The notes under the pieces were generated by a model. That model saw only the letters and a list, made by a program, of their open reading frames with translations. It searched no databases and had not been told where the DNA came from. A program made the position numbers and the translations under genes. Below are positions 10,597 through 50,703 of a DNA stretch of 50,703 bases, piece after piece. Position 1 is the first letter of the stretch, and the number at the start of each line of letters is the position of its first letter. The DNA is from Maribacter sp. (GTDB lineage Bacteria; Bacteroidota; Bacteroidia; Flavobacteriales; Flavobacteriaceae), in the NCBI GenBank assembly GCA_020629415.1, contig JAHDDL010000028.1, positions 1 through 50,703 on the forward strand, written 5' to 3'.

Positions 10597-11994
10597 ATGA
10601 CCTATCAATTTAAGACCTATCATAAAAAAATTCTTGCCGACACGGTTACCCCGGTAAGTGTTTATCTAAAAATAAGAGACCGTTTTCCCAATAGTATACT
10701 TTTGGAAAGCAGCGACTACCATGCAAACAACAACAGTTTCTCATATATCTGTTGTAATCCTATTGCCTCTATTAAAGTAGAAAACGAAGTTATTACCAAG
10801 CAATATCCAGATGGTGTCAATGAAGAAATAAAAATTACACCACAAACTAACGTGGTAGATATTATAGATTCTTTTAGTAAAGCATTTAAAGCGGATGATA
10901 ATGACTATAAGTTTATTAACAATGGATTGTTTGGCTATATGGCCTATGACGCTGTTCGCTATTTTGAAGATATAGACATTTCCGTAAAAGATGACTCTGT
11001 TCAAATTCCAGATATTTACTATGCGGTTTATCAAAATATCATTGCTATCAATCATTATAAAAATGAAGCCTATCTATTTGCGCATTGTTACAATACCGAG
11101 AATAACATACCAGAATTAGAGCAACTTTTAAGTACCAGAAACTTCGCTACCTATAATTTTAAAATAGAAGGTGAAAGAAAATCAAATCTTGCAGATGCAG
11201 AATATAGGGAGCATGTAAAATTAGCTAAAAAGCATTGCCAACGTGGCGATGTATTTCAGCTGGTACTGAGCCGTCGTTTTTCACAAGGTTTTAAGGGCGA
11301 CGAGTTCAATGTGTATAGAGCATTACGTTCTGTAAATCCATCACCCTATTTGTTCTATTTTGATTATGGCGACTTTAAAATTTTTGGTAGTTCTCCAGAA
11401 GCTCAATTGATCGTTAGCGATGGTAAAGCTGAAATTCACCCAATTGCCGGCACTTTTAAAAGAACAGGTAATGATGAGCAAGATGCACAACTTGCAAAAG
11501 AATTGAAGACAGACGATAAGGAGAACAGTGAGCATGTAATGTTAGTAGATCTTGCGCGTAACGATCTTAGTAGAAACGGTAGTGTGGTACAGGTAGAAAA
11601 TTATAGGGAAGTGCAATTTTTCTCTCATGTAATTCACTTGGTCTCCAAGGTTACCGGAATGAAAAAAAGTGATATCCCTACCATGAAAGTGGTAGCCGAT
11701 ACTTTCCCTGCCGGTACCCTAAGTGGTGCACCTAAACACATGGCCATGCAACTTATTGAAAGATACGAGAAAACAAGTAGAGGATATTACGGCGGGGCTA
11801 TCGGTTTTATGGATTTTTCAGGCAATTTCAATCATGCCATTATGATTAGAACTTTTTTGAGCAAGAATCACCAATTACATTATCAAGCCGGTGCAGGATT
11901 GGTAGCTGCATCGAACCCAGAAAATGAATTACAAGAAACATACAATAAACTAGGTGCTTTGACCAAGGCACTGGAAATAGCTGAAGACATATAA
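10597..11994 (+). CDS. trpE: Anthranilate synthase component I
   Basis: The 465-residue enzyme converts chorismate (with ammonia from TrpG) to anthranilate, the first committed step of Trp synthesis. The N-terminal domain carries LLESSD (about 31-36), the motif around the feedback Trp site. The chorismate-binding domain has FGSSPEAQLIV, PIAGTFKRTG, HVMLVDLARNDLSRNG, FPAGTLSGAPKHMAMQLI and YYGGAIGFMDF. Length is normal for stand-alone TrpE, and the LLESSD motif suggests TrpE rather than PabB. It is the first structural gene after the attenuator. Feedback inhibition by Trp is expected from the retained motif. Confidence 0.96.
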   Translation: MTYQFKTYHKKILADTVTPVSVYLKIRDRFPNSILLESSDYHANNNSFSYICCNPIASIKVENEVITKQYPDGVNEEIKITPQTNVVDIIDSFSKAFKADDNDYKFINNGLFGYMAYDAVRYFEDIDISVKDDSVQIPDIYYAVYQNIIAINHYKNEAYLFAHCYNTENNIPELEQLLSTRNFATYNFKIEGERKSNLADAEYREHVKLAKKHCQRGDVFQLVLSRRFSQGFKGDEFNVYRALRSVNPSPYLFYFDYGDFKIFGSSPEAQLIVSDGKAEIHPIAGTFKRTGNDEQDAQLAKELKTDDKENSEHVMLVDLARNDLSRNGSVVQVENYREVQFFSHVIHLVSKVTGMKKSDIPTMKVVADTFPAGTLSGAPKHMAMQLIERYEKTSRGYYGGAIGFMDFSGNFNHAIMIRTFLSKNHQLHYQAGAGLVAASNPENELQETYNKLGALTKALEIAEDI

Positions 11995-20062: not shown

Positions 20063-22147
20063 ATGAAACATTTTAACTTTTTATCGATTTTAACGCTCTT
20101 GCTAATTATGGCAAGTTGCTCAGATGACGACAATGCCGTTGCAGATATCATTGTCCCTGCATCTGGCGATATTGCCGGTGGACCGTTCACTATTTGTGTT
20201 GATGGAATACCGGATATGGTAAGTGGAATTACCTTGAACAGTGATACCTCTGCAGGCAGCTTAAGCAGTTGGGTCATAACAGATGATCAAAATAATATTT
20301 TAGGACTTCCTCCTACTTTAGATGCCGTATATAGTGTTGACTTCGATGCTGCCGGGGCAGGAACTTGCCTTATTTGGTATCTACGCTATGAAGAAGGACT
20401 TGTAGGTTTAGAAATGGGCCTGAACACTAACAACCTTGAAGGCTCTTTTGATTTATCTAACTCAATTGAGGTACAACGAAATGAAACCGCTGCCGGTGTT
20501 CTTTCTGGCGGACCATATGAATTTACCGTTGACGGAAATGCAGATTTTGTTACAGATATTTCTTTGAACAGCGAAAACGCAATAGGTACTAATAGCACTT
20601 TTGTCATTACCGACGATGAACTGAATATTCTTGGGTTACCGCCTACCATAGATGCTGTTAAAGAAGTTGATTTTGATATGGCCGGAAGCGGAGTTTGCCT
20701 GATCTGGTATCTTCGTTTTGAAGATGGTCTAATTGGCGCAGAAGCCGGTATGAATGCAGGTGAACTTGAAGGTTGCTTTAGCCTATCCAACTCCATTCAG
20801 GTAACAAGGTTAGATGCCGCTAATGCGGGTACAATTTCCGGAGGACCGTTTAACTTTTGTATTGATGGCGAAGTAGATAATGTATACGGTATTACCTTAG
20901 ACAGTTCTAATGCAAAAGGAAGCAATAGCAGCTGGGTCATTACAGATGACCAAGGAAAAATCTTAGGATTGCCTCCAACATTAGATGCTGTTGAAGGAGT
21001 AGATTTTGATGGCGCAGGTGCAGGCACTTGTCTAATTTGGTATTTACGCTATGAAGGTGAATTAACAGGACTAGCCGTTGATATGAACGCCAATGATCTT
21101 CAGGGAAATTTCAACTTATCCAATTCTATAGAAGTAATACGCAGTAGAACAGAAGCTGGGCAGTTGACCGGTGGTCCCTACAAATTTTATATTGATGGCG
21201 AAGCAGATTATGTTACAGACATAATGCTAGATGCATCTGATGCTTCCGGCACCAATAGCACATGGGTCATTACGGATGAGGATTTAAATATTTTGGGACT
21301 TCCACCAACATTAGATGCCGTAAGAGGTGTTAACTTTGATGGTGCAGGTGCGGGTACATGCCTAATATGGTATTTGAGATATGAAGACGGATTGGAAGGT
21401 GCAACAATGGGGAGCAATGCAGCAGATTTATCCGGTTGTTTTGATCTATCCAACCCAATAGAAGTTCAAAGGATACAAGGTGTAAATGCCGGTACGCTAG
21501 AAGGTGGTCCGTTCAGTTTTTGTGTTGACGGCGAAGTTGACAATGTTTACGGTATTTCTTTGGACAACTCTACCGCTACAGGTTCACAAAGTACATGGAT
21601 CATTACCGATGATCAAGGAAAAATTTTAGGTTTACCTCCAACACTAGAAGCTGTTGAAGGAGTTAATTTTGACGGAGCGGGTGCCGGAACTTGCCTTATA
21701 TGGTACGCACGTTATGAAGGTGAAATCAGCGGATTACAAGTTGATATGAATGCAAATAACGTTTCCGGAAACTTTGCCTTATCAAATCCGTTAACGGTGG
21801 TAAGAACGGAAACGCACGCAGGAACGCTAACCGGTGGTCCTTTTGAATTTATAGTTGATGAAACTTCTGATTACGTAACCGGTATTTCCGTTAACAACGA
21901 AAATGCTTCGGGTGCCAATAGTTCTTTTATAATCACTGACGAAACAGGTAGAATACTAGGCTTACCTCCTACTATTGAAGATCTTAACTCAGTAGACTTT
22001 AATGCAGCTGGCGAAGGAACTTGTTTTATCTATTATATAAGATATGAAGACGGACTGACCGGTATGGAACCCGGTTGGACATTTGATGAATTCAATGGTT
22101 GCTTTGATATTTCCAATTCAATAGAAGTAGTACGAAAGGTTCATTAA
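20063..22147 (+). CDS. Surface lipoprotein made of six ~110-aa tandem repeats
   Basis: This 694-residue lipoprotein has signal peptide and lipobox MASC with Cys at residue 19, followed by SDDD, the acidic pattern that favours export to the cell surface in Bacteroidota. The rest is six repeats. Each opens GGP(F/Y), then VDG, VITD(D/E), ILGLPPT, VxFDxAGxGTCLIWY, EGLxG, and ends LSN.I.V.R. Repeats alternate between A (1, 3, 5) and B (2, 4, 6). A repeats have a Cys near the start (FxxC or FxFC); B repeats have one near the end (GCF[SD][LI]SN); all six share the Cys of G[TV]C[LF]I. Acidic residues are abundant, so Ca2+ binding is possible. I do not know a named family; an adhesin or binding role is a guess. 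Confidence 0.82.
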   Translation: MKHFNFLSILTLLLIMASCSDDDNAVADIIVPASGDIAGGPFTICVDGIPDMVSGITLNSDTSAGSLSSWVITDDQNNILGLPPTLDAVYSVDFDAAGAGTCLIWYLRYEEGLVGLEMGLNTNNLEGSFDLSNSIEVQRNETAAGVLSGGPYEFTVDGNADFVTDISLNSENAIGTNSTFVITDDELNILGLPPTIDAVKEVDFDMAGSGVCLIWYLRFEDGLIGAEAGMNAGELEGCFSLSNSIQVTRLDAANAGTISGGPFNFCIDGEVDNVYGITLDSSNAKGSNSSWVITDDQGKILGLPPTLDAVEGVDFDGAGAGTCLIWYLRYEGELTGLAVDMNANDLQGNFNLSNSIEVIRSRTEAGQLTGGPYKFYIDGEADYVTDIMLDASDASGTNSTWVITDEDLNILGLPPTLDAVRGVNFDGAGAGTCLIWYLRYEDGLEGATMGSNAADLSGCFDLSNPIEVQRIQGVNAGTLEGGPFSFCVDGEVDNVYGISLDNSTATGSQSTWIITDDQGKILGLPPTLEAVEGVNFDGAGAGTCLIWYARYEGEISGLQVDMNANNVSGNFALSNPLTVVRTETHAGTLTGGPFEFIVDETSDYVTGISVNNENASGANSSFIITDETGRILGLPPTIEDLNSVDFNAAGEGTCFIYYIRYEDGLTGMEPGWTFDEFNGCFDISNSIEVVRKVH
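20177..22144 (+). repeat. Six in-frame tandem repeats (A-B)x3, 663-nt super-period
   Basis: Repeat starts (the GGP codons) are at 20177, 20507, 20840, 21170, 21503 and 21833, giving units of 330, 333, 330, 333, 330 and a last one of 312 nt. The A-to-A distance is exactly 663 nt both times, so the array grew by duplication of an A-B pair, not of single repeats. Copies differ at many silent and some coding positions, so the duplications are not recent. Confidence 0.9.
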
Positions 22148-43920: not shown

Positions 43921-44120
43921 CCTTAGATTGTTTAATGGGTAGATAACGTTATTACTTCTTCCTAAGACACAACTCTTTATCAATTTACAGATTATTAGGT
44001 TAAATTAACGTTGGGTCTATTTCATTTAAATCTGCAAATAATTTATCATTGTATTTATGTGCTAATTCTTATAGAATGGCCGTAAAACAATATTCTAGTT
44101 AAATTGATTGCCATTAAAAA

Positions 44121-44885
44121 TCAATGATATAAATCTTCTAAATCCGCATCACAAAGGGAACAGATAAGATCCTCCAATTTCTCACATACATCTTTAAAAT
44201 AACGTTCTCCCTTTTCAGCAGTAGCATACTCCGGATTACCTATACCTGTGTCACTACTAACTTTAGACCATTGGCGTTCTGCCCAAGCCCAACCCTCATT
44301 ATAAGCTTTGATCTTAAATTTTTTAGCACTACCACTACCCCATGTTTCTTTCGCCAATACCAGTTCTGGTCTTAAATAAAGCATGAGGCTAGTCTCCATC
44401 TCATCTGCATGATCACCTTTTTCCTTGAAATATTTAGATTTATCTAACATTGGTGGAAAAAAGCAGAAGCTGATGAACATCTTTGGAAACATTAAACCCA
44501 GTTCCCTAACAATCGGTTTAAAGTTATTTCCACCATGCCCATTGAACAATAGTAGCTTTCTAATTCCCTGTCTATCCAAAACAGTTACCAAGTCTTTCAA
44601 TATTGCCAATTGGGTAGACGGATTTAAATTCATATCCAAATAAATATCCTTTTGCCCTGTATTGACACCGTAAGGTATAGTGGGCAAAATAATTACTTTT
44701 TTACCCTTTTCCCATGCAATCTTACCCGCAGCTTCAACCATATTTTCAGCTTGGTAGTTATCTGTGCCATATGGCAAATGATAATTATGCGCTTCTGTTG
44801 CACCCCACGGTAATACCGCCAGTTCTATATTTTCATCCTTTAAATGATTCCAATTTGTTTCTGCTAGTATATATGGTCGTATCAT
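44121..44885 (-). CDS. Creatininase-family amidohydrolase
   Basis: The 254-residue protein contains the creatininase signature: VLPWGATEAHNYHLPYGTDN (metal ligands Glu, His, Asp), the GHGGNN motif in LLFNGHGGNN, and KGDHADEMETSLML (His, Glu ligands). The family includes creatininase and enzymes acting on cyclic amides, such as mycofactocin MftE and formamide hydrolases; the substrate here cannot be named. Length is typical. The preceding 200 nt (43921-44120) show no gene. There is no neighbour in the same operon that would define a pathway. Confidence 0.87.
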   Translation of the reverse strand: MIRPYILAETNWNHLKDENIELAVLPWGATEAHNYHLPYGTDNYQAENMVEAAGKIAWEKGKKVIILPTIPYGVNTGQKDIYLDMNLNPSTQLAILKDLVTVLDRQGIRKLLLFNGHGGNNFKPIVRELGLMFPKMFISFCFFPPMLDKSKYFKEKGDHADEMETSLMLYLRPELVLAKETWGSGSAKKFKIKAYNEGWAWAERQWSKVSSDTGIGNPEYATAEKGERYFKDVCEKLEDLICSLCDADLEDLYH

Positions 44886-44910
44886 AGTATTAAAGATACT
44901 ATATACGCAT

Positions 44911-44938
44911 AAAAAAACCCTTGAATAAATTCAAGGGT
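44911..44938 (-). terminator. Rho-independent terminator of the Lmo0937-like gene
   Basis: A perfect 9-bp stem (ACCCTTGAA 44917-44925; TTCAAGGGT 44930-44938) with loop TAAA is followed on the minus strand by seven T. It lies 30 nt after the small gene's stop codon and just upstream of the creatininase start. Confidence 0.82.
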
Positions 44939-44967
44939 CTGTATATTATTTACATAATGTAATGTAA

Positions 44968-45147
<180 letters not shown>

Positions 45148-45275
45148 TTAGATTGTTTATATGACAAAGTTAAAGGCATTAGCCCTATACCCTTAACTCA
45201 AACGAATTGATTACTAGCTCTAAATCAACGCCATACCATCAACACACTGCACTACAAGTACTAAAAACCAACCAC

Positions 45276-46166
45276 TTACATTAAATTTTCCTTAAAAAAA
45301 TCAATGGTTCGCGACCATGCCAATTCTGCTGCCGGTTCGTCATACCTTGGAGTAGACGTATTATGAAAACCATGATTAACATTTGGATAGAAATAGGCTG
45401 TATTTTCTTTACCCAACTCATTAAGCTTTTTTTCATATTCAGGCCATCCGGCATTTACCCGTTCGTCCAAACCTGCGTATTGCAGTAATAAAGGAGCGAT
45501 TATATCTTCTATTCCTTCCTTAGGCTGACCACCATAAAATGGAACCGCAGCTGCCAATTCTGGCACTTTTACTGCCATCATATTAGAGATCCATCCACCA
45601 AAACAAAAACCTACAACCCCTATCTTACCTGTGCACCCTTCATGATTCTTTAAATAGTTGAATGCCGCAATAAAATCCTCAAGCATTTCATTTCTGTCTC
45701 TTTTACGTTGCATTTCCCTACCTTCATCATCATTACCCGGATAACCACCTAACGGACTCAAAGCGTCTGGGGCAATCGTGATAAAACCCGCCAGGGCAGC
45801 TCTTCTTGCCGTATCCTCAACATACGGATTTAAACCTCTATTTTCATGTACCACCACTATACCCGGTAACTTTTCGTCAGCTAATTTTGGTTTTGAAAGT
45901 AACGCCTTAATCTCACCACCGCCTTTTGGCGAATCATAGGTAATAAAACCAGAATCAAGATCAGGGTTGTTTTTATCGACCAATAACGTAGTTTCGTAAT
46001 TAGGCATTAAAAAACTCATTAACGAAGGTACCGTAATACCTCCTACCGCATACATTGATAGTTTTTGCACAAAGTCTCGTCGTTCTAGTTTATTATGGGC
46101 ATAGGCATCGTAGAGATCGAACACTTCTTGTTTAATATCCTCTTTTCTTAATGATTTCATTTTCAA
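45276..46166 (-). CDS. Dienelactone hydrolase family protein
   Basis: The 296-residue alpha/beta hydrolase contains the dienelactone-hydrolase catalytic triad: Cys in VGFCFGGWI (nucleophile), Asp in AGLDERVNAG and His in VNHGFHN. Upstream, IVVVHENRGLNPYVEDTARR is the conserved oxyanion/helix segment. The N-terminal 40 residues carry RRDFVQKLSMYAVGG, which resembles a twin-arginine (Tat) signal followed by a hydrophobic stretch (AVGGITVPSLMSFL), so export is likely. The substrate is unknown; in this family it ranges from dienelactones to other esters. An alternative start two codons on (46160) cannot be excluded. Confidence 0.88.
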   Translation of the reverse strand: MKMKSLRKEDIKQEVFDLYDAYAHNKLERRDFVQKLSMYAVGGITVPSLMSFLMPNYETTLLVDKNNPDLDSGFITYDSPKGGGEIKALLSKPKLADEKLPGIVVVHENRGLNPYVEDTARRAALAGFITIAPDALSPLGGYPGNDDEGREMQRKRDRNEMLEDFIAAFNYLKNHEGCTGKIGVVGFCFGGWISNMMAVKVPELAAAVPFYGGQPKEGIEDIIAPLLLQYAGLDERVNAGWPEYEKKLNELGKENTAYFYPNVNHGFHNTSTPRYDEPAAELAWSRTIDFFKENLM

Positions 46167-46230
46167 AGCTTTTTGGTTCTATTTAAAATTACAAAAAGCA
46201 CTTGAGTGCGTCCATGATTTTAACAATAGA

Positions 46231-46266
46231 AAAAGCCTCACTCCCAAAAAATGGGAATGAGGCTTT
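46231..46266 (-). terminator. Rho-independent terminator of valS
   Basis: A 15-bp stem (46232-46246 with 46252-46266; core GCCTCACTCCCA / TGGGAATGAGGC) with a single mismatch and an A5 loop is followed on the minus strand by a T-rich run (TTTTTCT). It lies 19 nt after the stop codon of the valS C-terminal frame. Confidence 0.88.
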
Positions 46267-46284
46267 GTTATATATTAAAAAATA

Positions 46285-47400
46285 TTAGCCTAAACTTGCT
46301 AAACTCTTTTCTAAAGTTTCAATTTTAGCCTCGGCATCAGCTAATTTTTGACGCTCAATTGCTATTACCTTTTCAGGGGCATTATTGACAAAACGCTCAT
46401 TAGATAATTTCTTCTGAACAGACTGTAAGAATCCTTTGGTATATTTCAACTCTTCATTAATCTTCACAATTTCAGCCTCAATATCTATAGCACCTTCCAT
46501 AGGCACAAAGTATTCGTTACTCTTTACCCTAAATGTCAATGCACCTTCTAACTGCTCTTCTGTATAAGCAATATCAGAAACATTGGTAAGTTTTGATATG
46601 ACAACATCAAAACGATCGCTCACCTTTTCGGTATTTAAAACAGATAATTCCAATGCTTCTTTCATAGGAATATTCTTGTTCTTTCTTATAGTTCTAATCC
46701 CGGCAATAACCTCAGCGGCAAAATCGAACTCTTCCAATAATTGTTCATCTATTTTACCTATTGTTGGCCACTTTGCAATCACCAATGCTTCGCTCTCGCT
46801 TCTTTTTGAAATATGCTGCCACACCTCCTCGGTCAAAAATGGCATGAACGGATGTAACAATTTCAAGTTCTGCTCAAATAGCTGAATTACCTTATCAAAA
46901 GTAATTTTATCAATAGGTTGCTGGTATGCAGGTTTAATAATCTCCAATAAAGAAGAACTATAATCATCCCAAACCAATTTATAAATTGACATTAAAGCAT
47001 CGGAAATACGGAACTTGCTAAAGTGATCCTCAATCTCTACCAAGGTCTTGTTCAATTTAGACTCGTACCACTCTAAACCAAGTTTTGATGCTTCGGGCTG
47101 TGGTATATCTGCAACTTCCCAACCTTTAACCAATCGGAAACCGTTCCAAATTTTATTGGCAAAGTTTTTTCCTTGCTGACACAGATCTTCATCGAACATT
47201 AAATCGTTACCTGCCGCCGAACTTAGCAACAAACCAACGCGTACGCCATCCGCTCCATAATCTTCAATTAATTTTAATGCATCTGGCGAGTTCCCCAAAG
47301 ATTTAGACATCTTGCGGCGCTGCTTATCCCTTACCAAGCCTGTGAAATAAACATTCTCAAAAGGTTTCTTACCTTTAAACTCATACCAGGCAACTATCAT
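46285..47400 (-). CDS. valS: Valyl-tRNA synthetase, C-terminal part (separate frame)
   Basis: This 371-residue frame holds the second half of ValRS. It opens [14 protein letters not shown], then [13 protein letters not shown], the catalytic KMSKS loop ([13 protein letters not shown], about 32-44), the alpha-helical anticodon-binding domain (about 100-260) and a C-terminal coiled coil (about 300-371, [15 protein letters not shown] ... [11 protein letters not shown]) typical of ValRS. It lacks the HIGH half of the active site and cannot be an enzyme alone. In intact ValRS the residues before MI(V/M)A are FFWVAR, here split off. With the upstream frame it makes about 874 residues, the expected length. 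The pair spans 46285-48910 and is best read as one broken gene, or possibly a split enzyme. Confidence 0.9.
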
Positions 47401-48910
47401 TCACCCAGAAGAATAGAATATCCGGACCCGTAACCAAATCGTTGGTAGGATAGTAATAATTAACCTCTTCATTATCCGGATCCATAATGCCTCCAAATAC
47501 ACTCATAGGCCATAACCAAGATGAAAACCAAGTATCTAGCACATCGGCATCTTGCCTTAAATCACTTTCCTGCAAATCTGAATTGCCAGATTTCTCCTTT
47601 GCCAGTTCTAAGGCCTCCTTTAAATTAGCGGCAACCACAAAATCTTCTTGACCGTCACCAAAATAGAACGCCGGTATCTGTTGTCCCCACCACAATTGTC
47701 TAGAGATGTTCCAATCACGAACGTTCTCCATCCAATGGCGATATGTATTTTCAAATTTCTTTGGATGCAGTTTTACATCTCCACTTTCCAACACTGCTTC
47801 TAAAGCGGGTTTTGCCAAATCTTCCATTTTTAAAAACCACTGATCAGACAGTTTAGGTTCTATGACAGCTTTGGTTCTTTCTGAGGTACCTACTTTATTG
47901 ATATGGGTTTCGGTTTTTACCAAAATACCCTTTTCCTCCAATTCTTTTGAGATTTCTTTTCTAACTACAAAGCGATCTTTACCCTCGTAATGCATACCAA
48001 AACTATTTAAGGTGGCATCATCATTAAAGATATCTATAGTCTCCAAGTTATGCTTTTCGCCTAGCGCTTTGTCATTTATGTCATGCGCAGGTGTCACCTT
48101 TAAACAACCGGTCCCGAACTCCATATCAACGTATTCATCTTCTATAATAGGTATTACCCTATTACAAATAGGCACAATAACGTTTTTACCTTTTAAATGA
48201 GTAAAGCGCTCATCGTTAGGGTTAATACATATAGCAGTATCACCCAAAATAGTCTCCGGTCTTGTAGTAGCAATGGTCACTTTTTCATCTGAACCTTCTA
48301 TGGCATATGACAAATAGTACAACAAACCTTGTTTTTCTTCATACACCACTTCTTCATCAGACAATGTTGTTTGCGCCTCTGGATCCCAATTTACCATACG
48401 ATAACCGCGATAAATCAACCCTTTATTATAAAGGTCTATGAACACTTTTATAACACTATCATATCTTTCTTGATCCATAGTGAACGCGGTACGGTCCCAA
48501 TCACAAGAACAGCCCAATTTCTTTAACTGCTCTAGTATGATACCTCCATACTGGTGTGTCCAGTCCCAAGCATGTTTCAAAAACTCTTCCCTTGTAAGGT
48601 CATTTTTATTGATACCTTGCTCTTTTAATTTAGCCACCACTTTTGCCTCTGTAGCAATAGATGCGTGATCCGTACCAGGTACCCAGCATGCATTTTTACC
48701 TAATAAACGAGCTCTTCTGATCAATACATCTTGTATAGTATTGTTCAGCATATGCCCCATATGAAGAATACCGGTTACGTTTGGTGGTGGTATTACAATA
48801 CTATAAGGTTCCCTATCATCGGGAACCGAATGAAAATATCCGTTTTTCATCCAATACTCATACCATTGAGATTCTGTGGACTGCGGATTATATTTTGAAG
48901 GAATTTCCAT
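47381..48910 (-). CDS. valS: Valyl-tRNA synthetase, N-terminal part (frame broken)
   Basis: The 509-residue frame starts [20 protein letters not shown], contains the HIGH motif [17 protein letters not shown] (about 40-56), the tRNA-editing CP1 domain (about 190-340, [20 protein letters not shown]), and [18 protein letters not shown]. It runs through [10 protein letters not shown] and then reads a non-homologous tail NDSCLV and stops, while the homologous sequence continues in the +1 frame. Charging tRNA-Val with valine needs both halves. No second valS is in this window. ValRS is normally essential, so either the break is an error in the sequence, another copy exists, or the halves assemble. 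Confidence 0.9.
47396..47404 (-). other. valS frame break (apparent 5-nt loss in the FFWVARMI motif)
   Basis: On the minus strand the gene reads TGG GTG A ATG ATA GTT. Family members have GTG GCN (A/C)GN ATG (V-A-R-M), so 5 of the 6 bases for Ala-Arg are missing between 47401 and 47402. To continue, a ribosome would have to shift by +1 at GTG-A-ATG or reinitiate on the overlapping ATG (47398-47400), whose frame overlaps the upstream one by 20 nt. Confidence 0.8.
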
Positions 48911-49054
48911 ATTTGGAACAGTTTTTGAATAAATAAATATGTGGTTATTAAAAATAAAGCCGAACTGACATTCTAACGGTCATTTCAGCTAAATTTTACC
49001 TAAAATTAAATACGAAACAAAAATAAGTAACGTTAGAGTATAACAAAAGGATTT

Positions 49055-49084
49055 TGAGGTTGATCTGAAAAGATTTAATTTTGA
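49055..49084 (+). promoter_or_regulatory. Promoter of the DUF1573 gene
   Basis: TTG (49055-49057, within TTTTG) and a perfect -7 box TAATTTTG (49077-49084) lie 19 nt apart, the ideal Bacteroidota spacing. Transcription would begin near 49090, about 14 nt before the ATG. The divergent valS starts 193 nt away; no second promoter is clear in the gap. Confidence 0.75.
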
Positions 49085-49103
49085 AATCCACCCAAAATTA
49101 AAA

Positions 49104-49496
49104 ATGATGAAAAAAATAGTACTTGTATTATTTGTAGGCTTACTAGGATTTAGCTTGACCGCTCAAGACACTGCGGCCAAAATAGAGTTTAAGTCAGAAA
49201 CGGTTGATTATGGTGAAATAGCAAAAGGTTCTGACGGAGTTAGAGTTTTTGAATTTACCAATACCGGTACTGCTCCGCTTATTGTAAGTAAAGTAAGTTC
49301 TAGCTGTGGATGCACAATTCCAAAAAAACCGGAAGATCCAATTTTACCAGGTAAAACAGGTGAAATTCAAGTTAAGTATGATACTAACAGAGTTGGACCT
49401 ATTCGTAAAGCGATTACGGTAATATCTAACGCAGATACACCAACAAAAGTTTTAAAGATCAAAGGGGAAGTAAAAGCTTCTACCGGTACCAAATAA
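49104..49496 (+). CDS. DUF1573 domain exported protein
   Basis: The 130-residue protein has a signal peptide (MMKKIVLVLFVGLLGFSLTA, cut after about TAQ) and a DUF1573 domain of ASH/Ig-like type: FKSETVDYGEIAKGS, EFTNTGTAPLIVSKVSSSCG and CTIPKKPEDPILPGKTGEIQ, ending in VKYDTNRVGPIRKAITVIS. The GCxCG-like pair (SSCGCT) is the family hallmark, perhaps for metal or disulfide. Found in many copies across Bacteroidota, its function is not established. It has its own strong promoter and terminator. Confidence 0.92.
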   Translation: MMKKIVLVLFVGLLGFSLTAQDTAAKIEFKSETVDYGEIAKGSDGVRVFEFTNTGTAPLIVSKVSSSCGCTIPKKPEDPILPGKTGEIQVKYDTNRVGPIRKAITVISNADTPTKVLKIKGEVKASTGTK

Positions 49497-49515
49497 AAAT
49501 TACTGTTGTAAAATT

Positions 49516-49546
49516 AAAAGCCCAACTGAAAAGTTGGGCTTTTTTT
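49516..49546. terminator. Bidirectional terminator after the DUF1573 gene
   Basis: A perfect 12-bp stem (AAAAGCCCAACT 49516-49527; AGTTGGGCTTTT 49532-49543) with a GAAA tetraloop and flanking A- and T-runs lies between the convergent DUF1573 and protease genes (ends 49496 and 49550). It probably serves both. Confidence 0.9.
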
Positions 49547-49549
49547 GTC

Positions 49550-50703
49550 TTATTGATCATCGAAAAGGGGTTTTAACTCAAAGCTGAACAACAAATCATT
49601 GTCATAACGCTCTACCAAAACCTTTATCCTATTATCTTTGTTTACATTGAGCATGTGCATAATCTCTTGTAATTTGTATCTATGAATACGCTTACCATTT
49701 ACTGCTAAAATTACATCGCCCTCACGTAACCCTGCTGAATGTGCCGGACTCCCTTGACGAATTCCCGATACAATTATCTCTGGCACCAAACTCAACCTTG
49801 TAGCTCCTTGAAGCAAGATTTGAACATCTCCATAAGATTTTGCATTACTATTTACAATACCGTTAGCATCGGTAATTCTTTCTGAAACATACCGCATACC
49901 GGCATGTTGAAGATCAATACCACTTACATTATACTGAAATAGTTTACCAAAGTTTGAATTCTTGGTAAGTATGAGCTTTTCATTAGCATAATCAAACACC
50001 ACATGAAAGCGCTTTATAATCTCCCCACCAAGACTGCCATTTCTACCACCAAAATCGGAAATAGAATTAAATGTTTCCATATCAGGAAATGCCGCCTTGG
50101 CATCGCTCAAAATAAAATCAGAAATCTTTAAATGATTTATTTTGGTTCTCTTTCCAAAAATATCTCCTGCCAAACCTTTGCCAAGAAAATCCTGATAGTG
50201 TTTTTTTGGAAGTTGAATTCTCTCATCTTCAAACAACCAAACCGCGTCACTACTACCCGTATCCAACAATAACTTGACAGGAATTTCATCGGTTTTATTG
50301 ATCATCACATGAGCATCTAAATATGCCTTCCTTCTAATTACCGACATATCCACTACCCTAGTATGCTTAGACGTTTTATATGTATAAAGCGCTGGATCAT
50401 AAAACTTAATGGTCTTTTTGATATAGTTGACATCCACAACAAAATCCCTAAACAAATCATACCCAATAATACCATGCACAGGAATACCTAGACTTGGAGA
50501 AAAATTAATTCCAGCATCCATCACTACATAAATATTTTGATAAAGGTTCTTTACACCACCCAGTTCCACTCTATTATTGGTAGACTTTAATGCGTTAATG
50601 GGATCACCTTCCCCTAAACCGTTAATGGTTATCTCCGTAACATTATTTAACTGAATGGAATCTTGATCCGCCAAATTGAACAGTATGGGCGTGCCCACAC
50701 CAG
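49550..50703 (-). CDS. Retropepsin-like aspartyl protease with PDZ domain (N-terminus outside window)
   Basis: At least 384 residues are visible. The frame runs off the right edge with no start codon inside; the visible start reads xCT-G-VGTPILFNLAD, which fits a DTG active-site motif (DTGVGTP) with its Asp just outside. A second such motif, LLLDTGSSDAVWL, lies at about residue 146, so both aspartyl-protease lobes seem present. The C-terminal 90 residues form a PDZ domain (VPEIIVSGIRQGSPAHSAGL, REGDVILAVNGKRI). This architecture is known in Bacteroidota as aspartyl-protease/PDZ proteins that act outside the cytoplasm. GTG at 50698 is not taken as a start because the homologous sequence continues upstream. 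Confidence 0.85.
   Translation of the reverse strand, partial: GVGTPILFNLADQDSIQLNNVTEITINGLGEGDPINALKSTNNRVELGGVKNLYQNIYVVMDAGINFSPSLGIPVHGIIGYDLFRDFVVDVNYIKKTIKFYDPALYTYKTSKHTRVVDMSVIRRKAYLDAHVMINKTDEIPVKLLLDTGSSDAVWLFEDERIQLPKKHYQDFLGKGLAGDIFGKRTKINHLKISDFILSDAKAAFPDMETFNSISDFGGRNGSLGGEIIKRFHVVFDYANEKLILTKNSNFGKLFQYNVSGIDLQHAGMRYVSERITDANGIVNSNAKSYGDVQILLQGATRLSLVPEIIVSGIRQGSPAHSAGLREGDVILAVNGKRIHRYKLQEIMHMLNVNKDNRIKVLVERYDNDLLFSFELKPLFDDQ

Follow-up and report, generated by a model that had tools for sequence, protein, structure and literature searches.

The valS gene of a draft Maribacter sp. genome, which runs from 48910 to 46285 on the minus strand of the window analysed here (a stretch of 50,703 nt that is the whole of contig C12, in an assembly of 81 contigs and 3.895 Mb), is split into two reading frames of 509 and 371 amino acids, and this break is probably a local consensus or contig-join error in the draft rather than a new kind of enzyme. 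The support for this reading is that no second copy of the gene was found, that the genome of the same species carries the gene intact, and that the lesion is both private to this genome and isolated within it. With a private lesion in a single-copy and apparently essential gene, an intact conspecific and an otherwise clean draft, a local error is the simplest explanation. We infer that the lesion is absent from the cells, and the origin of the error is likewise a matter of deduction.

The valS locus and its lesion

The two frames (Table 1) overlap by 20 nt, with the ATG of the C-terminal frame at 47398-47400, and thus take the place of the single end-to-end open frame of 876 amino acids seen in the conspecific. 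The class I synthetase profile of Pfam is divided between them: the first frame matches its positions 1-348, and the second, which also bears both the anticodon-binding domain and the ValRS tRNA-binding arm, matches 346-412. The N-terminal piece corresponds to residues 1-504 of the conspecific ValRS (99% identity) and the C-terminal piece to residues 499-876 (98% identity); the N-terminal piece alone scores 655.3 bits against the valS model TIGR00422, above its curated cut-off of 612.1 bits. An earlier sequence-only reading of the locus had placed both frames, their overlap and the ATG, every one of these coordinates correctly, and the 5-nt loss that it described within the FFWVARMI motif is borne out by alignment with relatives.

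Table 1. Positions of the valS frames and of the two private changes in the window
Feature	Position	Strand	Description
valS N-terminal frame, 509 aa	47381..48910	-	6 out-of-frame residues follow 503 native ones and run to a TGA
valS C-terminal frame, 371 aa	46285..47400	-	contains KMSKS, the anticodon-binding domain and the tRNA-binding arm
Site of the 5-nt loss	47402..47403	-	relative to the same species and to all 117 relative loci compared
Private substitution, Gly510 to Trp	47388	-	Gly in all 117 scored rows (1 of 118 unscorable)

Bases are present opposite the 5-nt gap in 117 of 117 relative loci, a set that includes repeats of the same genome and comprises 104 distinct aligned stretches. 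The net difference in length is exactly 5 in 113 of these loci and is 3 or 7 in the remaining four (L035, L046, L051 and L052), where the 5-nt gap is present as well and the net figure is altered by a further alignment gap of 2 nt towards the edge of the region under comparison. The loss lies outside any homopolymer and, by eye, is not accompanied by microhomology, and so is not a typical sequencing slip. A second change, the replacement of Gly510 by Trp, lies 14 nt from the loss and is also private to this genome; it is newly recognized here, having been overlooked in the earlier reading. Of 118 rows, 117 were scorable, again counting repeats of the same genome, and none of them departs from Ala504, Arg505, Met506 or Gly510; in the present valS Ala504 and Arg505 are missing and residue 510 is Trp. 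The distant solved ValRS 1GAX, from Thermus, keeps the Arg, Met and Gly and replaces the Ala with Ser. The rest of the gene appears normally constrained: against the conspecific, 36 of its codons differ synonymously and 5, among them that of Trp510, nonsynonymously, so that the break is either very recent or not real.

Collinearity of the window with a conspecific genome

The window is collinear with the genome of the same species (G060), to which it is 98.4% identical along its full 50,703 nt, and G060 presents its intact 876-aa valS at the corresponding place. Six gaps interrupt this alignment, five of them located between genes and the sixth being the 5-nt loss in valS. A chimeric contig was first suspected, as the last 6.6 kb of the window is 97.4% identical to a different species (G011), against mostly 77-85% in the remaining aligned blocks, but a chimera is ruled out by the collinearity with G060 and by the same step in the identity of G060 to G011.

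A block of approximately 9.8 kb that includes valS is about 95-99.6% identical between G060 and G011, another Maribacter species, in 500-nt bins; it occupies 44102-50703 and, with the window numbering carried past its end by means of G060, extends to about 53.9 kb. It is flanked by sequence of 79-88% identity in the 2.5 kb to the left and 76-90% to the right. This block, which the window shares, has the look of an old interspecies exchange, and on the sequence comparisons it is such a putative exchange, not a chimera, that underlies the step in identity. The gene beside valS, at 45276-46166, encodes a member of the dienelactone hydrolase family (Pfam DLH) whose N-terminus is YqhI-like; a 2026 paper ties such enzymes to the breakdown of PET in Maribacter dokdonensis (PMC13188925). 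Farther away, at 20063-22147, a frame of 694 amino acids displays internal repeats about 65-68% alike (aligned with G060), and its only Pfam match is a weak one to DUF3846.

Accuracy of the assembly

The quality of the draft was assessed against G060 in the window and in contigs C76 and C13 by means of 255 reference ORFs (277.9 kb), each at least 95% aligned; ORFs below this limit, among them those interrupted by N gaps, were excluded. Eight of the 255 were flagged, valS among them, and the break in valS is the sole convincing coding frameshift of the set, no other convincingly frameshifted gene being found among these ORFs and two small ones being ambiguous. The frameshifts at C76 264753 and C13 58932 lie upstream of the presumed true start, and the 132-aa ORF at C76 158483, which stops early and shows no indel, is tentatively taken as spurious or overcalled. 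Ten small gaps without a stop were seen at C76 160157, nothing more than a stop in roughly the final two codons at C12 37595 and C76 182340, and an alignment edge with about 870 extra nt in this genome at C76 175175.

Private nonsynonymous changes are not in excess (44 here, 47 in G060 and a further 41 unpolarised), and radical private changes in 44 ORFs number 5 here and 4 in G060. The edges of N gaps are clean, with 22 mismatches and 2 unaligned among 1800 positions (1.2%, compared with 1.8% elsewhere). A generally low quality of the assembly finds no support in the ORF scan, the counts of private substitutions or the clean gap edges, and no convincing error of a similar kind was found elsewhere in the window, C76 or C13. 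Because the assembly is clean where sampled, a high general error rate does not explain the lesion, which must be either a local fault or real; the earlier remark that a 5-nt loss is unusual for an error is fair on the same grounds.

The leuS gene also seems broken, into frames of 833 and 171 amino acids. Contigs C76 and C13, 312.8 kb in total, contain ten 100-N gaps, however, and two of them fall within the span of leuS, which is therefore not counted as a second lesion. These two gaps are found in L134 (G000:C76:35001-55000) as N runs at 11975 and 13615, where G060 spans about 394 nt and about 103 nt, respectively; as these spans differ from 100 N, the gap lengths in the draft are placeholders.

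A local error as the preferred reading

One of the 5 radical private changes in the 44 ORFs falls within 15 nt of the sole convincing coding frameshift, a proximity expected by chance at about 0.3% by a simple area estimate (44,178 bp) that was made after seeing it. This coincidence suggests that the loss and the Gly-to-Trp change are probably one faulty stretch, or one event. As an error, the 5-nt loss and the adjacent altered letter would together form a single faulty stretch of about 20 nt, which may have arisen, for instance, through faulty joining, gap filling or the low-quality end of a read, and the living population would most likely carry one intact 876-aa valS, as the conspecific does. 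The main weakness of this reading is that the assembly comparisons gave no direct sign of error and that errors seldom take the form of 5 nt lost outside a repeat. Among the explanations proposed beforehand, namely an error, a pseudogene beside a second valS, and a working split or recoded synthetase, the error fits best; the second gene was not found, and nothing positive emerged for a split or for recoding. If the break is an error, an essential gene may look broken in an otherwise clean draft, and claims of gene loss need to be backed by reads; were the lesion true, it would be remarkable for a cell to live on a synthetase that is severed within its nucleotide-binding fold.

Copy number and dispensability of valS

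A search with the valS profile detected no second valS in this genome, which is 94.95% complete with a contamination of 0.07. The matches to the model are the two pieces only, together with matches below the cut-off that coincide in place with what are presumably IleRS, LeuRS and MetRS. Each of the 8 other genomes of the genus that were searched yields one match above the cut-off. Across the order, where up to 3 candidates per genome were scored, intact ValRS is matched at E<=1e-60 in 276 of 296 genomes (the present one included), and in 225 of the 226 whose completeness is 90% or more and contamination 5% or less, which makes it hard to regard the gene as dispensable.

Two full-length copies occur in none of the 276 matching genomes, among the matches listed at E<=1e-60. 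Two matches were listed for six genomes (the present one, G090, G125, G168, G273 and G320), but on closer look all are pieces rather than full copies. The pieces sit on separate contigs in G090 and G320, and both lie inside one open frame of 913 amino acids in G273. Frame breaks on one contig, at sites other than the present one, are found in 2 of the 275 other matching genomes, G125 and G168, among the matches listed, and consist by eye of a 1-nt gain and a 1-nt loss, respectively. The first of these, at L198 (G125:C1), belongs to a single-contig genome whose valS is broken just before KMSKS, with one extra base by eye. The two cases show that such breaks occur in public assemblies, not what causes them.

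These results bear on the possibility that the lesion is real. A very recent loss-of-function mutation, present in part of the population or in dying cells and taken into the consensus, would agree with the accuracy of the assembly elsewhere and with the constraint still visible in both halves of valS, and a single complex mutation could account for both private changes, which are 14 nt apart. Such a mutation is nonetheless unlikely: no second valS was found and nearly all good genomes of the order have one, so that mutant cells should not come to dominate a culture or community, and the mutant lineage is on this account one without a future. It is also quite improbable that a functional valS resides elsewhere, whether in the portion of the genome that the draft lacks or on an unbinned element, and that the present copy is a fresh pseudogene. 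The incompleteness of the genome and its 81 contigs leave room for such a gene, as does a size about 0.3 Mb smaller than the rounded 4.2 Mb of the conspecific, but neither the matching genomes of the order nor the 8 others of the genus offer a precedent for two copies.

A working split or recoded synthetase

A putative two-piece ValRS, in which the 371-aa frame is translated by termination-reinitiation at the overlapping ATG and the halves assemble, is very doubtful. The overlap of the frames and the clean division of domains between them are consistent with such an arrangement, but the restart ATG is the codon for Met506 of the motif, a residue present in all 117 scored rows, and 85 of the 117 relative loci already have, in the shifted frame, the TGA that ends the first frame here and spans codons 511 and 512 (the first shifted-frame stop comes later in the other 32). 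Neither signal, therefore, shows adaptation or an evolved split. The cut passes through the catalytic fold and is attended by the loss of Ala504 and Arg505 and the change of Gly510, of which the Arg and Gly are kept even in 1GAX, and the split is shared by none of the 117 relative loci, with the conspecific intact. A naturally split synthetase would be expected to share its split with relatives and to retain a complete set of conserved catalytic-fold residues, and the present locus does neither. There is accordingly very little likelihood that the cells truly carry the lesion and live on a reinitiated two-piece ValRS, with Trp510 as an accompanying adjustment. The literature look-up was limited and gives no grounds for calling a split ValRS unreported.

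Programmed +1 recoding that fuses both frames into one protein is the least credible of the alternatives, for although skipping one base just past the break would enter the second frame, the RNA at the junction has no stable structure (z -0.22, with 77 of 200 shuffles folding at least as well), inspection of the junction by eye reveals no slippery or stop-stalled site, and two invariant residues would still be missing from the product, which would bear Trp510.

Comparison with known systems

Naturally split class I synthetases exist, as exemplified by the LeuRS of Aquifex, and the present locus resembles that enzyme in that two polypeptides would jointly cover one synthetase. It differs in that the cut runs through a catalytic motif with loss of residues, and in that the split is private to one draft assembly and bears no sign of selection. 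The frame-broken valS genes of G125 and G168 are similar in presenting two frames on one contig, although their breaks lie at about residues 530-541 and at residue 256, respectively, and are by eye single-base changes. Compared with bacterial ValRS in general (TIGR00422), the valS described here has the same domain order and the HMGH and KMSKS motifs, whereas its frame is broken by 5 nt and a Gly that is invariant in the scored rows is now Trp. Its closest counterpart is the intact ValRS of the conspecific, with which both pieces share 98-99% protein identity.
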